64,000 bases of DNA, from the NCBI GenBank assembly GCA_015655145.1, contig JAATFO010000138.1, forward strand, positions 1 to 64,000, given 5' to 3'. This DNA comes from Enterobacterales bacterium. GTDB lineage: Bacteria > Pseudomonadota > Gammaproteobacteria > Enterobacterales > Enterobacteriaceae. This document shows, in pieces, positions 43,652-50,123 of the stretch (position 1 is the stretch's first letter; each line of letters begins with the position of its first letter). The notes beneath the pieces are model-generated. The model saw only the letters and a list, made by a program, of their open reading frames with translations, searched no databases and was not told where the DNA came from. The translations under genes were made by a program, and so were the position numbers.

Positions 43652-45214
43652 ATGCAAGTACCTCAGCAAATTATTGGACAATTTGGTCGAAAACGATTGC
43701 TCATCTCAGCGATTGTTGCTGTGTTGGTGCTCATTTTCACATTATCTTTTCGTTTTATTGAAGAAAAAAAACGCATAGAACAGCAACCACGCAACTTCGC
43801 TAACCACGCCATTCAGCGGTTTGATCGGCTGTTTTCCCCGCTGGATATTGCCGCCAATGATGCACTTCAGCTTGTTGGTCTGCATTGCGCCGATGTTCAT
43901 TTCCCATTAATAAAAAAAATGGCGACATTACAAACCATACGCGCCGTTTTGCTGGTTAATAATGACCAGGTTTACTGTTCAAGTATTTTCGGCAAGCGCG
44001 AGACTATATTCAGCACCACCTATCCGGATCTGGCGGTTAATCACCAACGGATGATGCTGAGCGTTGATCATGATTTGCTCAAAGGGTCTCCCATATTATT
44101 ACTCTGGACGCCAAAATCAGCGGATAACCGTTCCGGGATTTTACAAATAATTAACATTGAAATGATGAATAATTATCTGCTGGCACCGGCCCTTCCCTGG
44201 GTTGAACGCGCGATCTTCAACGTGGGAGGGAAAAGCCTGGAGTTCGGTAACCCACTGATTGAAAAAGCGACACCGGCAGAAGACGAAGTCAGTTACGAAA
44301 AATCTTCACAACATTATCCCTTCACCATTACTCTGTTTGGCCCGGCAGCCACTCACATGGCGCTAATGACCTTACCGTCACAGTTACCACTGGCACTGTT
44401 GTTAAGTTTGCTGATGGGATATATCGTCTGGTTAGCAACAGCCAACCGCATGAGCCTCTCATGGCAAATCAATTACGGCCTCTCAGCACAAGAATTCATG
44501 GTTTACTGCCAGCCGCTGATCAACACAAAGAGCGGTGACTGCGACGGTATTGAACTCCTGCTACGCTGGTACAATCCACGCCAGGGCTGGATCTCACCCG
44601 AGGTGTTTATTCCCCTTGCTGAGCGTCAGAATCTTATTGCACCACTGACCCGTTTCGTGATGCGTGAAGCCATCAGACATTTACCTTTATTGCCTGCCCG
44701 ACCCACATTTCATATTGCCATTAATGTTGCCGCCAGCCATTTTCGCGACCATGCCATCACCGATGATTTACAACGCCTGTGGTGGCCGGCGAACCCGCTA
44801 CCCCAGTTAATCGTGGAACTTACTGAACGTGATGCGTTACCGGTTGTTGACCAACGGATTATTTCTCATCTGCATCAGGCTGGCGTAAAACTGGCTATTG
44901 ATGACTTTGGTACCGGCCATAGCTCACTGTCCTACCTGAAAACACTGAGTCCTGATGTGTTGAAGATTGATAAGATCTTCACTGCCGCAATTGGCACTGA
45001 TGCGATTAACGCCACGGTGACCGATATGGTGATATCGCTGGCACAGCAACTTAATATCAGTCTGGTTGCGGAAGGTGTGGAAACTGCCGAGCAAGCAAAT
45101 TACTTGCGCGCAAGGGGGGTGAATACCTTACAGGGTTATTTCTATGCCCGACCAATGCCGATTGGTGATTTCCCCGCCTGGCTTGCTCAGCATCAGCCCA
45201 AACCGTATGATTAA
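43652..45214 (+). CDS. pdeD: Cyclic di-GMP phosphodiesterase PdeD (CSS-EAL)
   Basis: Membrane c-di-GMP phosphodiesterase, 520 residues (E. coli YoaD about 530). Two membrane segments (about 15-33 and 245-265) flank a periplasmic CSS domain with the CSS redox motif in VYCSSIFGK near 108. The cytoplasmic EAL domain has ELLLRW in the EAL position, INVAASHF, VELTERDAL, LAIDDFGTGHSSLSYL, LKIDKIF and VAEGVETAEQ, so all metal and catalytic residues are present. DsbB/DsbA redox state may control this class through the CSS cysteine (known for the family). Confidence 0.92.
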   Translation: MQVPQQIIGQFGRKRLLISAIVAVLVLIFTLSFRFIEEKKRIEQQPRNFANHAIQRFDRLFSPLDIAANDALQLVGLHCADVHFPLIKKMATLQTIRAVLLVNNDQVYCSSIFGKRETIFSTTYPDLAVNHQRMMLSVDHDLLKGSPILLLWTPKSADNRSGILQIINIEMMNNYLLAPALPWVERAIFNVGGKSLEFGNPLIEKATPAEDEVSYEKSSQHYPFTITLFGPAATHMALMTLPSQLPLALLLSLLMGYIVWLATANRMSLSWQINYGLSAQEFMVYCQPLINTKSGDCDGIELLLRWYNPRQGWISPEVFIPLAERQNLIAPLTRFVMREAIRHLPLLPARPTFHIAINVAASHFRDHAITDDLQRLWWPANPLPQLIVELTERDALPVVDQRIISHLHQAGVKLAIDDFGTGHSSLSYLKTLSPDVLKIDKIFTAAIGTDAINATVTDMVISLAQQLNISLVAEGVETAEQANYLRARGVNTLQGYFYARPMPIGDFPAWLAQHQPKPYD

Positions 45215-45314
45215 ACCGGTACATGGCGTTAACCCTGTACCGGTATTCCTTCTTTTTTCCTTCACAGGCTCATCGCCAGCAATGCCGCTCAACGGTCAGC
45301 ACTGATTCTGGTAT

Positions 45315-46874
45315 TCAGGCATCATCATTATCAGCGATCTGATCCCTGGTTACACGCACCAGGTCTATACGGTATTCCGTCGCATCGATAATCTGAAAAT
45401 GCAATGGCGGTATATCAATGTTCTCGCCCGGCAGAGGTAATTGTCCTTTTTGTGCAATCAACAACCCGCCCAGTGAGGCGTAATTATCGTCTTGCTTTAC
45501 CAGATCATGCGTATCAAGCAGTTGTTGCAGAGAATGAAGATCCGTCCCTCCCTTTACCAGCCAGCCATCGCCATCTGCAATCACATCAGGGGTTTCATCT
45601 TCATCCGGGAATTCACCGGCAATCGCTTCCAGTACATCCAGCGGCGTAATTAACCCCTGCACCACGCCAAATTCACTGGTCACGACCACAAAACTGCCTT
45701 TCGCCCGGCGTAACACCCCGAGCAGATTAATAGGATCAAGGGTCTCCGGTACGATAATCGCGGGCATGGCGGCGGCAAAGGCCGCCACATCCACGCCATG
45801 ATCTAACGCCACCAGTAACTCTTTCGCGCGCACCACACCGATAATCTCATCAAGCTCGCCACGACAAACAGGAAACAAGCTATGAGGCGTATCCAGCAAT
45901 TGCATACGAATCTCATCGGGTGGTCGCTGTGCATCCACCCAGGAGATTTCGCCACGTGGCGTCATGATGCTACGTACCGAACGCGAGGCCAGAGTCAGTA
46001 CCCCATTAATCATATAACGTTCTTCATCTTTAAATGCTTCTTGTGGCAAGCGTAATGCCGTTTCATCACTGCCACTGGCAAACTGCGCCCCCCCACGACG
46101 TACCCCCATTAAGCGCAAAATAGCTTCAGCGGTGCGTTCACGCATTGGGCGGTGCGACTGGTGACGGATAAAATTACGCCGTGCAATCTGGTTAAATAGC
46201 TCGATCACTATCGAGAAACCAATTGCGGCATACAGGTAACCTTTCGGAATTGAAAAACCAAAACCTTCCGCAATGAGACTCAAACCGATCATCAACAGGA
46301 AACTGAGGCATAACACCACCACGGTCGGATGCGCATTAACGAAATTGGTGAGTGGTTTTGATGCCAGCAACATGATACCCATCGCGATCACGACCGCTGT
46401 CATCATCACCGGTAAATGATTGACAATACCTACGGCGGTAATCACCGCATCCAGCGAAAACACGGCATCCAGCACCACTATCTGCACCACAACGGCCCAG
46501 AAACTGGCATAATTTTTGTTGCCATCACTCTCGATCGGGCTATTTTCCAGCCGTTCATGCAACTCCGTGGTCGCTTTAAACAACAGAAATAAGCCACCTG
46601 CCAGTAAAATCAAATCGCGTCCGGAAAAATCAAACTGCGCGATGCTAAATAATGGGCGCGTCAGGGTGACCATCCATGAGATCAGGGATAACAATCCCAG
46701 GCGCATTAACAGCGCTAACGCCAGCCCTACCAGTCGGGCTTTATCTCTCTGCTTCGGCGGTAACTTATCGGCAAGAATGGCAATGAACACCAGGTTATCA
46801 ATGCCAAGTACGATCTCAAGCACAATCAGCGTCAGCAAACCAGCCCACATTGAGGGGTCTAAGAGAAATTCCAT
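45315..46874 (-). CDS. yoaE: YoaE, TerC-domain membrane protein with CBS and CorC domains
   Basis: A 519-residue inner-membrane protein (E. coli 518). The TerC-type domain (about 1-230) starts [20 protein letters not shown] and has [15 protein letters not shown] with the TerC acidic residue pair. A linker and two CBS repeats ([10 protein letters not shown]..., [20 protein letters not shown]) follow, then a CorC_HlyC domain ([19 protein letters not shown]). It is probably a metal-ion transport or maturation factor; manganese export is known for TerC relatives. The start at 46874 follows AGGAG. A hydrophobic leader ORF ends 25 bases upstream. Confidence 0.93.
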
Positions 46875-46899
46875 TACAGACTCCTGGAAGAGGGGCTGG

Positions 46900-47055
46900 T
46901 CAACCCAATGTGCCAATCAGCAAAGGGGGTACAGCAGAGATAACAACAGGTGATGAGCAGAGGAACGCCGGGGGGCGTAACAACACAAGCCAAATAACTG
47001 CGGGGCACAGATAAAAAACGTCGGTGACAGTCCATAGGGAGGGCCAAAAACCCAT
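46900..47055 (-). CDS. Putative 51-residue leader peptide upstream of yoaE
   Basis: An open frame from ATG 47055 to TGA 46900, lying between the yoaE promoter and yoaE. The product starts [19 protein letters not shown], continues with strongly hydrophobic segments ([14 protein letters not shown], then [15 protein letters not shown]), and has ten prolines including PP pairs. AGGAG lies just two bases before the ATG, which is tight spacing. Position and composition resemble regulatory upstream ORFs that sense translation or metal ions. I recall an annotated small ORF before yoaE in K-12 (possibly yoaL), but cannot confirm the name or similarity. Confidence 0.5.
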
Positions 47056-47082
47056 AACTCCTGTAACGATAAAGAGATCAAT

Positions 47083-47110
47083 ACTCTAACAGCAGAACCT
47101 TCGCCGTCAA
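47083..47110 (-). promoter_or_regulatory. yoaE promoter
   Basis: On the minus strand: TTGACG (47110-47105), 16-base spacer, TAGAGT (47088-47083). The start would be near 47076, about 20 bases before the leader ORF. Confidence 0.6.
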
Positions 47111-47220
47111 TATATTTTCTTACACTTACCCCTCTCTTCAGTGTACCTGCTACCTTTTAGCTGTTCAGATGACTTAATCACGCGGTTAAGCGTCTAAATA
47201 ACTGAGCGCCGTCACATAAT

Positions 47221-47244
47221 TTATTTTTTCACACACTAAAATAA
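47221..47244. promoter_or_regulatory. Mlc/NagC-type operator upstream of manX
   Basis: TTATTTT-N10-AAAATAA, a perfect inverted repeat of the kind bound by Mlc and NagC. E. coli manXYZ is repressed by both. The site lies about 170 bases before the manX start. Confidence 0.55.
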
Positions 47245-47289
47245 TTCATGACGTCATTGCTTTCCATGCTGTCATTGCATGAAAATTTA

Positions 47290-47305
47290 TGTGACATCTG
47301 CCACA
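47290..47305. promoter_or_regulatory. CRP-like site upstream of manX
   Basis: TGTGACATCTGCCACA matches TGTGA-N6-TCACA with one mismatch. manXYZ is CRP-activated in E. coli. Confidence 0.5.
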
Positions 47306-47410
47306 CTTTGCCCCAACTGGCTTTCTGCCAGGCTGAGTGTCGTTAAGATGACATGGTTGGCGAATCGGTGAGCCCTGCTGAATCGCTTAAATTGTAAACG
47401 GAGGTAGCAA

Positions 47411-48373
47411 GTGACTATTGCTATTGTAATCGGCACACACGGTTGGGCTGCAGAGCAGCTACTTAAAACGGCCGAAATGCTATTAGGCGAACAGCAAAAT
47501 GTTGGCTGGATTGATTTCGTTCCAGGGGAAAACGCTGAAACGTTGATCGAGAAATACAATGCACGTCTCGCTGATTTAGATACCAGTAAAGGTGTGCTTT
47601 TTCTTGTCGATACATGGGGTGGTAGCCCGTTCAATGCTGCCAGTCGTATCGTCGTTGACAAAGATCAGTATGAAGTTGTCGCCGGTGTTAATATTCCGAT
47701 GCTGGTGGAAACCCTGATGGCGCGTGATGACGATCCCACATTTGATAAACTGGTGGCCATCGCGGTTGAAACAGGTCGTGAAGGCGTTAAAGCGCTGAAA
47801 GCCAAGGAACACGAGCCTAGTGCCGTGGTGGTCAGCCCGGTCGCTCCCCCGGCGCCACAGAAGCCAATGGGACCAGGCGATCATATGAAGATTGGACTGG
47901 CACGTATTGATGACCGTTTAATTCACGGCCAGGTCGCTACACGCTGGACTAAGGAAACCAATGTGTCGCGAATTATTGTGGTGAGCGATGAAGTGGCAGC
48001 TGATAATGTACGTAAAACACTGCTGACACAGGTAGCGCCGCCTGGTGTAACCGCGCATGTGGTTGACATTGACAAAATGATCCGCGTTTACAACAACCCG
48101 AAATACAGTCAGGACAAAGTGATGCTGTTGTTCACCAATCCCGCTGACGTTGAACGCGTTGTGGAACAAGGAGTACAGATTAAATCAGTTAATATTGGCG
48201 GGATAGCGTTCCGTCAGGGGAAAAAGCAGATAAATAATGCTGTTTCTGTTGATGAACAAGATATTGAAGCCTTTAAGAAATTAAATGCTCGCGGTATTGA
48301 GCTGGAGGTAAGAAAAGTATCATCCGATCCAAAACTGAATATGATGGAATTGATAGCTAAAGCAGACCAGTAA
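47411..48373 (+). CDS. manX: PTS mannose permease IIAB component
   Basis: Cytoplasmic EIIAB-Man, 320 residues. The IIA domain starts MTIAIVIGTHGWAAEQLL with phospho-His10. An Ala/Pro-rich hinge (VVVSPVAPPAPQKPMGPGD) leads to the IIB domain, whose phospho-His is in IDDRLIHGQVATRW near 175. It phosphorylates mannose, glucose, glucosamine and related sugars during ManYZ uptake. The start codon is GTG after GGAGG. First gene of manXYZ. Confidence 0.96.
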   Translation: MTIAIVIGTHGWAAEQLLKTAEMLLGEQQNVGWIDFVPGENAETLIEKYNARLADLDTSKGVLFLVDTWGGSPFNAASRIVVDKDQYEVVAGVNIPMLVETLMARDDDPTFDKLVAIAVETGREGVKALKAKEHEPSAVVVSPVAPPAPQKPMGPGDHMKIGLARIDDRLIHGQVATRWTKETNVSRIIVVSDEVAADNVRKTLLTQVAPPGVTAHVVDIDKMIRVYNNPKYSQDKVMLLFTNPADVERVVEQGVQIKSVNIGGIAFRQGKKQINNAVSVDEQDIEAFKKLNARGIELEVRKVSSDPKLNMMELIAKADQ

Positions 48374-48452
48374 TTTCTGGCGAAAAAAACGTCTTTCTTG
48401 CCTGATATCGCATCAGGTTTAACTCAGTTATAAATGTCAGAGGAGAAGTACA

Positions 48453-49259
48453 ATGGAGATTACCACTCTTCAAATTGTGCTGTTATTTATCGTTGCCTGT
48501 ATCGCCGGGATGGGATCAATACTGGATGAATTTCAATTTCACCGTCCACTGATCGCCTGTACCCTGGTGGGGTTAGTATTGGGTGACATGAAGACCGGCA
48601 TCATTATTGGTGGGACACTGGAGATGATTGCACTGGGCTGGATGAACATCGGTGCAGCTGTCGCCCCGGATGCCGCGCTGGCATCGATTATTTCCACCAT
48701 TCTGGTTATCGCTGGCGGACAAAACGTGGGTGCAGGTATTGCACTGGCTATTCCACTGGCAGCCGCAGGCCAGGTATTAACCATCATCGTGCGCACCATT
48801 ACCGTTGCCTTCCAACATGCTGCCGATAAAGCCGCTGAGAAAGGTAACCTGTCCGCCATCTCCTGGATCCATGTTTCTGCGCTAGTTCTGCAGGCAATGC
48901 GCGTCGCCATTCCGGCGGTGATTGTTGCTGTATCCGTAGGAACCAGCGTGGTCCATAACTTGCTCAACTCGATCCCTGAAGTTGTCACTAACGGGTTAAA
49001 TATTGCGGGTGGCATGATCGTCGTCGTTGGTTATGCGATGGTGATTAACATGATGCGCGCAGGCTACCTGATGCCTTTCTTTTACCTCGGTTTTGTTACT
49101 GCGGCGTTCACCAATTTCAACCTGGTATCCCTGGGCGTGATTGGCGTCGTGATGGCGATACTGTATATCCAACTGAGTCCGAAATATAACCGTGCAGCAG
49201 GCGGTACCACGGCAGCTACGGGCGCATCCAATCACGTTGTGGATAACGAATTAGATTAA
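48453..49259 (+). CDS. manY: PTS mannose permease IIC component
   Basis: Membrane EIIC-Man of 268 residues with multiple hydrophobic segments. It begins MEITTLQIVLLFIVACIAGM and contains GGTLEMIALGWMNIGAA and ALASIISTILVIAGGQNVGAG, typical of the mannose family. It forms the sugar channel together with ManZ. The ATG follows AGAGGAGAAGT. Confidence 0.95.
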   Translation: MEITTLQIVLLFIVACIAGMGSILDEFQFHRPLIACTLVGLVLGDMKTGIIIGGTLEMIALGWMNIGAAVAPDAALASIISTILVIAGGQNVGAGIALAIPLAAAGQVLTIIVRTITVAFQHAADKAAEKGNLSAISWIHVSALVLQAMRVAIPAVIVAVSVGTSVVHNLLNSIPEVVTNGLNIAGGMIVVVGYAMVINMMRAGYLMPFFYLGFVTAAFTNFNLVSLGVIGVVMAILYIQLSPKYNRAAGGTTAATGASNHVVDNELD

Positions 49260-49274
49260 CAAGGGGTGAGGAAA

Positions 49275-50123
49275 ATGGTTGATACAAAAACAACAACAGA
49301 AAAAAAACTCACACCGGGTGATATTCGTGGTGTGTTCCTCCGTTCGAATCTGTTTCAGGGTTCCTGGAACTTCGAACGTATGCAAGCATTAGGTTTCTGC
49401 TTTTCCATGGTGCCGGCTATTCGCCGTCTCTATCCGGAAAATAATGATGACCGTAAACAGGCGATCAAACGCCATCTGGAATTTTTCAATACCCACCCCT
49501 ATCCGGCAGCGCCCATTTTGGGTGTAACGCTGGCGATGGAAGAACAAAGGGCAAATGGAGCCCCGATTGACGATGCCGCCATCAACGGGATCAAGGTCGG
49601 CTTGATGGGCCCGTTGGCCGGTGTGGGTGATCCGATTTTCTGGGGTACCATGCGTCCGGTTTTTGCCGCCCTGGGCGCCGGTATCGCCATGACAGGTAGT
49701 CTGCTTGGTCCCTTGTTGTTCTTTGTGCTGTTTAACGCTGTTCGTTTATTGTTCCGTTACTATGGCGTGGCCTATGGCTACCGCAAAGGGGTCGATATCG
49801 TTAGCGATATGGGCGGGGGATTCCTGCAAAAACTGACAGAAGGCGCATCTATTCTGGGGCTGTTCGTGATGGGGGCACTGGTCAATAAGTGGACACATGT
49901 CAATATCCCGCTGGTTGTTTCCCGAATCACTGACCAGACCGGGAAAACGAACGTCACCACAGTACAAACTATTCTCGACCAGTTGATGCCCGGCATAATA
50001 CCGCTGCTATTAACTTTTGGCTGCATGTGGTTATTGCGCAAAAAAGTAAATGCACTGTGGATTATCATCGGCTTCTTCTTCATCGGTATCTTCGGTTACT
50101 GGATTGGTTTGTTAGGTTTGTAA
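49275..50123 (+). CDS. manZ: PTS mannose permease IID component
   Basis: Membrane EIID-Man of 282 residues. [18 protein letters not shown] near 20 and [20 protein letters not shown] near 120 are the IID signature, and the C-terminus is hydrophobic. The ATG at 49275 ([11 protein letters not shown]) follows GGGGTGAGG. A GTG three codons earlier also lies in frame but sits within the ribosome site. It is 15 bases after manY. Confidence 0.95.

Follow-up and report, generated by a model that had tools for sequence, protein, structure and literature searches.

A leader frame before yoaE with a candidate split ribosome-binding site and a body free of detectable amino-acid constraint

Results

The window analysed here, a stretch of 64,000 nucleotides from an Enterobacterales bacterium (contig JAATFO010000138.1), carries an orthologue of the K-12 leader gene yoaL at 47035–46874 on the minus strand. 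We consider it likely that this gene starts through a split ribosome-binding site and raises translation of the adjacent yoaE by coupling through a body of neutral sequence. A hairpin between a distant Shine-Dalgarno sequence and the ATG would bring their spacing to about 9 nt, and ribosomes would start on yoaL, read a body whose residues are irrelevant, and stop on the yoaE ATG or at most about 16 nt from it, by which yoaE translation would rise through translational coupling. The frame, its start context, the covarying hairpin, the position of the stop and the neutrality of the body were each established by comparison of related leaders, that is, at the level of sequence.

A yoaL orthologue directly upstream of yoaE

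The gene yoaE (also mgpA; 45315–46874, minus strand), which the initial annotation had described as TerC-type, indeed encodes a TerC-CBS-CorC_HlyC membrane protein of 519 amino acids (aa), as seen from the ORF list and a family search. Directly upstream of it on the same strand, within the divergent region between yoaE and manX, lies a frame of 53 aa (MDCHRR...; 46874–47035, minus strand) whose TAA stop forms a TAATG overlap with the yoaE start (46872–46876). The yoaE Shine-Dalgarno sequence AGGAG (46881–46885) is contained in this frame. The start motif ATGGACTGTCACCGA (47021–47035, minus strand), which encodes Met-Asp-Cys-His-Arg with the rare Arg codon CGA as codon 5, is conserved in the alignment of leaders, and the window has both the MDxHR start and the Shine-Dalgarno-hairpin context of yoaL.

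The K-12 small ORF upstream of yoaE, to which the initial annotation had pointed for comparison, is yoaL (b4751), a gene of 52 aa that precedes yoaE (b1816) and whose last 13 bases are annotated within yoaE. Its start ATGGATCGTCACCGACG aligns over ATGGACTGTCACCGACG at 47035 of the window, which is 20 bases downstream of the ATG chosen initially and in a different frame. The window shares with K-12 yoaL-yoaE and Salmonella mgpA the place, the strand, the start motif, the layout of Shine-Dalgarno sequence, hairpin and ATG, and the stop at the yoaE start, whereas the bodies of the K-12 and window frames are dissimilar and the K-12 frame ends 13 nt inside yoaE rather than at TAATG. The Pfam YoaL model (PF22867) found K-12 YoaL (E = 9.5e-41) and gave no match to window YoaL at E up to 0.01. 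Judged on these sequence features, window YoaL is a positional orthologue of K-12 yoaL and not a member of PF22867. Neither this frame nor the one first proposed matched any Pfam or NCBIfam family at E up to 0.01. Frames of this kind can thus go unnoticed when annotation relies on protein models, as window YoaL escapes the Pfam YoaL model. A megablast search for near E. coli matches to the window leader and the window yoaE returned none, the species probably being too distant.

Some further features of the region were recorded. The promoter that the initial annotation had called good is present as TTGACG-16-TAGAGT (47110–47083, minus strand; 9/12 consensus positions), but it is a consensus match not above expectation, since the shuffled region gives 1.0 such sites on average. 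Related TerC genes having been linked there to manganese riboswitches, an Rfam search of 44000–50000 gave zero matches at E up to 1, in line with the initial view that no such riboswitch is visible. A block at 47196–47247, in the divergent region between yoaL and manX, is conserved in many relatives (pieces of 36–59 nt, 78–95% identity), and we take it to be probably the manX control sites. A weak terminator-like stem with a T-rich tail lies inside yoaL at 46998–47010 (CTGTGCCCCGCAG TTATTTGGCT).

Leader collection and distribution of yoaL

Leaders were picked by yoaE similarity from 60 related genomes, named genomes (the best 80 of 574 loci), 246 family genomes (the matches listed), 100 fetched stretches and K-12. 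This gave 241 loci, 240 of them with a recognisable yoaE start (L225 had no yoaE match), and 220 distinct leaders. Anchoring on the start motif and Shine-Dalgarno sequence only (rule A) retained 181 of the 220, the window included, while a start of the form MD/E..R/K with a stop after position -60 (rule B) retained 186, of which L088 was set aside as a chance match, leaving 185.

Named genera with a yoaL leader include Enterobacter, Citrobacter, Salmonella, Klebsiella, Serratia, Yersinia, Pantoea, Erwinia, Dickeya, Pectobacterium, Rahnella and Hafnia, as well as Zobellella and Oceanisphaera. By rule B yoaL was missing from 34 of the 220 leaders, including Pseudomonas, Cupriavidus, Shewanella, two Aeromonas and one Gammaproteobacteria bin; several others come from small genomes. 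The K-12 yoaL leader was found at an identity of at least 95% in 5373 of 5426 complete E. coli genomes, and the other 53 gave zero matches to it. The two Aeromonas leaders (L103 and L104) have a related start, ATGGACAAYCCCCGAAGT, upstream of yoaE, with a stop well before yoaE and no spacer hairpin seen, and are perhaps an older or looser form. Five leaders, all in genomes of 0.6–1.4 Mb (L224, L226, L227, L234 and L235), have a changed yoaL start or stop early, and may have lost the coupling. An enterobacterial yoaL-yoaE leader was also present in an assembly titled Chryseobacterium sp. 18061 (L061, CACSKA010000003.1), which is probably mislabelled or contaminated.

Constraint on the first codons

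Codons 2–6 of yoaL are conserved, with a pN/pS of 0.18 between sister pairs, and synonymous differences are also infrequent there (9 per 203 sites, compared with 240 per 1776 in the body). At codon 5 (47021–47023 in the window), 183 of 185 leaders use CGA, a rare Arg codon, and the other two have CGG and AGA; the search pattern fixed residues 2 and 5 (Arg or Lys at 5), so that this near-invariance is partly built in, while the choice of CGA within Arg is not. Among the Arg codons of the body CGA is used in 30 of 676.

The bias towards CGA and the low synonymous change in this constrained MDxHR start suggest an alternative, in which control would act in early elongation, by a pause or drop-off at codon 5 that is tuned by a signal. 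We regard this as unlikely, because the initiating ribosome or an RNA structure could hold the same bases, Arg or Lys at codon 5 belonged to the search pattern, and there is no known signal.

A conserved hairpin in the spacer of the yoaL start

Our preferred reading, a split ribosome-binding site, draws on the spacer just upstream. A Shine-Dalgarno-like site precedes yoaL in all 185 leaders, at 19–24 nt (about 21) from the ATG in 178 of them; in the window it is AGGAG at 47058–47062 (minus strand), over-long by its linear distance of 22 nt, and the aligned positions A6–G10 are at least 90% conserved in 149 rows. At 21–22 nt, a Shine-Dalgarno sequence is too distant to support good initiation. 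In 178 of 185 leaders the spacer between the two elements contains a hairpin of three or more pairs, and its excision leaves a spacing of 9 nt in 143 of these and of 7–11 nt in 176. The commonest stem in relatives is GGGC/GCCC. In Zobellella, Oceanisphaera and L024 the hairpin differs in sequence (CCGGY/RCCGG) and in position, and the excised spacing is still 8–9 nt. Among the seven leaders without a called hairpin, L191 and L192 do carry one, the wrong Shine-Dalgarno site having been picked. The remaining five (L020, L021, L121, L160 and L162), which are similar in sequence and have a linear spacing of 14–15 nt, truly lack the hairpin and yet keep yoaL, which counts against the model.

Covariation in the alignment of 149 rows further supports the stem. 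Of the cells of the four-pair stem, 96.6% are paired, and two-sided changes occur in three of its four pairs, a number that 5 of 500 shuffles reached. There are 12 double-change cells and the covariation score is 0.111, each reached by 0 of 500 shuffles, with the limit that these cells count sequences rather than events and that related sequences are not independent. Sliding the 3' arm by one column lowers the pairing to 54–55%. When the arm is slid by -3, there are 15 two-sided cells as against 12 in the true register, at a pairing of 35.5%, so that this count alone proves little. The two-sided changes fall in several genera: to U-A in L014, L170/L211, L186/L187 and L196/L222, to G-C in L171/L175, and to A-U in L016, L078 and L240. 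The mean folding energy of the 116 distinct spacers of at least 18 nt is -6.5 kcal/mol, compared with -2.1 kcal/mol for shuffles of the same letters. Of 40 genomes, 10 had a single occurrence each of a strict GGGC/GCCC pattern, always before yoaE by coordinates, and the reversed control gave one match in all.

The hairpin of the window, GGGTT-TTT-GGCCC (47041–47053, minus strand), is among the weaker ones. It has three G-C and two G-U pairs and a predicted energy of -4.9 kcal/mol, its degenerate stem (GGGTT/GGCCC) is missed by the strict pattern, and its excision leaves 4 + 5 = 9 nt. In the 29-nt context of the window, the GGA of the Shine-Dalgarno sequence can also pair with UCC, which counts against the model. 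A general masking of the yoaL Shine-Dalgarno sequence by GGAG-CUCC pairing was considered and rejected, as CTCC lies at most 12 nt before the ATG in only 33 of 185 leaders (window included).

The restoration of a usual distance by the hairpin is thus indicated by prediction and by covariation in relatives, and is weak in the window itself. To our knowledge, split ribosome-binding sites have so far been known from T4. According to the passages of PMC3014915 that deal with T4 genes 38 and 25, a hairpin there shortens the distance from Shine-Dalgarno sequence to AUG from 22 to 5 nt and from 27 to 11 nt, respectively. The yoaL start has the same over-long distance bridged by a hairpin, and is a candidate split ribosome-binding site of this type. 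It differs in being the start of a chromosomal leader ORF before a transporter gene, in many enterobacterial genera and some relatives, with a predicted hairpin of mostly four pairs. By analogy, the hairpin should permit initiation at yoaL, and we infer that it enhances it. The literature searched, which consisted largely of open-access papers, yielded no account of a hairpin at the start of yoaL.

The conserved hairpin would also be compatible with a cation-tuned start, in which Mg2+ or polyamines fold the spacer hairpin and shorten the spacing, so that yoaL is switched on and with it, by coupling, the cation-protection protein YoaE. As reported in the part of PMC12421838 on mgpA, a Salmonella mgpA'-'lacZ translational fusion rises at 10 mM Mg2+ when the pH is neutral or alkaline, but this fusion mixes transcription with translation and does not isolate the hairpin. 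E. coli mRNAs with a distant Shine-Dalgarno sequence are described in passages of PMC7177335 as part of the polyamine modulon (oppA, rmf, fis and others), stimulated as a class by polyamines, although excess spermidine represses them. The window has their layout only, a distant Shine-Dalgarno sequence in a structured initiation region, and neither yoaL nor yoaE appears in those passages of PMC7177335 that list genes with distant or obscure Shine-Dalgarno sequences. Since the hairpins are mostly stable by prediction (mean of -6.5 kcal/mol), they may always be folded, and cation tuning seems to us quite improbable. If true, a structure-on switch would drive a neutral conduit ORF, without a ligand-binding riboswitch or a sensing peptide, and YoaE would help to remove excess cation.

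A body free of detectable amino-acid constraint

Coupling through a neutral body, as preferred here, accords with the way in which the rest of the frame varies. In 55 sister pairs, limited to those of equal length with 70–98.5% body identity, the pN/pS of the yoaL body was 0.77 in frame and 0.79 and 0.74 out of frame, and differences were spread evenly over the three codon positions (246/269/270). The pN/pS of yoaE codons 2–30 in the same pairs was 0.04. On this comparison, the yoaL body is free of detectable amino-acid constraint, and codons 2–6 are conserved. The conservation at the amino-acid level that the initial annotation expected in relatives, and whose absence it named as evidence against its proposal, is accordingly lacking in yoaL beyond codon 6. 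Residues conserved in a stalling part, as an arrest or sensor peptide would have, were not found, the body being at the out-of-frame level and only codons 2–6 conserved.

This neutrality argues against a peptide that senses by Pro-Pro pairs or cysteines and for a sequence-neutral coupling conduit; an open frame that is kept regardless of the encoded residues is what such a conduit would be expected to look like. A regulatory signal may exist, and would then be more likely to act at the start site than through the body of the peptide. Leader-peptide sensors such as MgtL (in the passages of PMC12421838 that describe it) and TnaC resemble yoaL in being short ORFs that precede a transport or metabolic gene and in having translation as the point of control, whereas the yoaL body has no conserved peptide to sense with.

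The neutrality of the body also bears on the idea that YoaL is a functional small protein that acts in trans, its position before yoaE being merely that of an operon member. The K-12 annotation lists YoaL as a protein, and there is a Pfam family for it (PF22867), but with zero amino-acid constraint past codon 6, lengths that range from 39 to 91 aa (rule B tally, L088 set aside), and a Pfam model that misses window YoaL at E up to 0.01, a role in trans is very improbable.

The frame ends at the yoaE start

Under the coupling model the stop is expected near the second start, and in 171 of the 181 anchored leaders the yoaL frame ends in the interval from -3 to +16 nt relative to the yoaE start. 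Stops at -3 to +1 of the yoaE ATG, mostly TGATG or TAATG, account for 72 of the 181, stops inside yoaE at +13 or +16 for 99, and earlier stops for 10. Relative to yoaE, the stops of the 185 leaders lie in the phase of TAATG and +13/+16 in 138 cases, in the phase of TGATG in 41 and in the third phase in 6. As the stops occupy two main phases and nevertheless remain near the yoaE start, indels must have moved the frame between at least two phases.

The sections of PMC12548453 on coupled gene pairs describe coupling as usually best at -4 to +3 nt, with an enrichment of -1 overlaps (TGATG/TAATG). Many species share such a TAATG or TGATG stop-start overlap at yoaE, but yoaL differs from these pairs in that its frame seems to be without a protein role and that its commonest form is a 13-nt overlap, which falls outside the optimum of -4 to +3 given there and counts against the coupling model.

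A sequestering fold at the yoaE start was also considered, as a hairpin appeared in the window's fold, and was dropped after comparison with synonymous recodings. Over 180 leaders, folding of the yoaE start region was no better than that of the recodings (-22.3 compared with -22.6 kcal/mol), which gives no sign of an evolved lock, and the fold stability of the whole leader is not unusual (z = 0.66). The lack of a conserved lock at the yoaE start leans, weakly, towards termination-reinitiation, and we infer that the step onto yoaE would be mainly of this kind.

The overlapping 51-codon frame is out of frame with yoaL

The initial annotation had placed the leader gene in a different frame (46900–47055, minus strand), of 51 codons, and had read it as a hydrophobic, Pro-Pro- and cysteine-containing peptide that stalls ribosomes and acts as a translation-dependent sensor for yoaE. 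The ORF list with translations confirms an ATG-start frame of 51 aa at 47055–46900, with an AGGAG tightly spaced, 2 bases 5' of its ATG, and a hydrophobic peptide; the cysteines number two instead of the three claimed, and the "several" Pro-Pro pairs exist but are two. The length of this frame is not special, as 80 ORFs of at least 25 aa overlap the surrounding 6 kb, and a gap of 2 nt between Shine-Dalgarno sequence and ATG is closer than usual. Its ATG (47055–47053) falls within the spacer that is conserved at the yoaL start and overlaps the first base of the spacer hairpin.

Comparison with relatives shows that this frame, which overlaps yoaL out of frame, is not conserved. Of the 181 leaders retained by rule A, 13 (the window among them) carry an ATG no more than 6 nt from the corresponding Shine-Dalgarno sequence, and the other 168 do not. 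Of the 12 relatives with such an ATG, only L032 (14 aa) and L148 (50 aa, with its ATG at the same place) use the phase proposed initially; in L038 and L132 it falls in the yoaL phase, in seven others in the third phase, and L226 was outside the phase tally. L032 and L148 share several of the first 13 residues of the proposed peptide because the conserved bases of the yoaL start are read in that phase. Counted from the yoaL ATG, the proposed phase stays open for 44 codons in 49 of 185 leaders, the yoaL phase in 180 and the third in 25. If the phase has to stay open to a point 12 nt before the yoaE ATG, the corresponding numbers are 24, 177 and 17 of 185, with about 53 expected from shuffles, and in this second test the selection of leaders favours the yoaL phase. 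The proposed frame of the window itself fails it, as its stop lies 25 nt before yoaE.

Sequence comparison therefore identifies the 51-codon frame as the wrong one, the true leader gene using another frame. From the sensor proposal, the leader ORF before yoaE and control at the level of translation survive, while the frame, the peptide and hence the sensing features fall away. Despite the close AGGAG and the similar frame in L148, we give hardly any credence to a stalling peptide in the 46900–47055 frame, whose ATG is missing in 168 of 181 leaders and in the right phase in only two of 12 relatives that have one.

Discussion

That a leader ORF exists and that it affects yoaE is already known. 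In K-12, where yoaL precedes yoaE, changing the YoaL start codon to a stop lowers translation of MgpA/YoaE, as stated in a passage of PMC12421838 that cites Weaver et al. 2019, and on this basis translational control is the best reading for yoaE. The regulatory mechanisms of mgpA are called unclear in the same part of PMC12421838. As far as our searches of the literature went, neither the frame assignment for this genome, nor the family-wide neutrality of the body, nor the conserved split site has been described. The species of the window would be expected to act like K-12.

These results indicate where the control of yoaE (mgpA), a gene recently recognised in Mg2+ protection, would best be sought, namely in the hairpin of the yoaL start and at the stop-start junction, and not in the peptide. 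The start of yoaL offers a chromosomal and evolutionarily tested candidate for a split site, and yoaL itself would be a clear example of a leader frame that is seemingly kept open solely for the act of translation.
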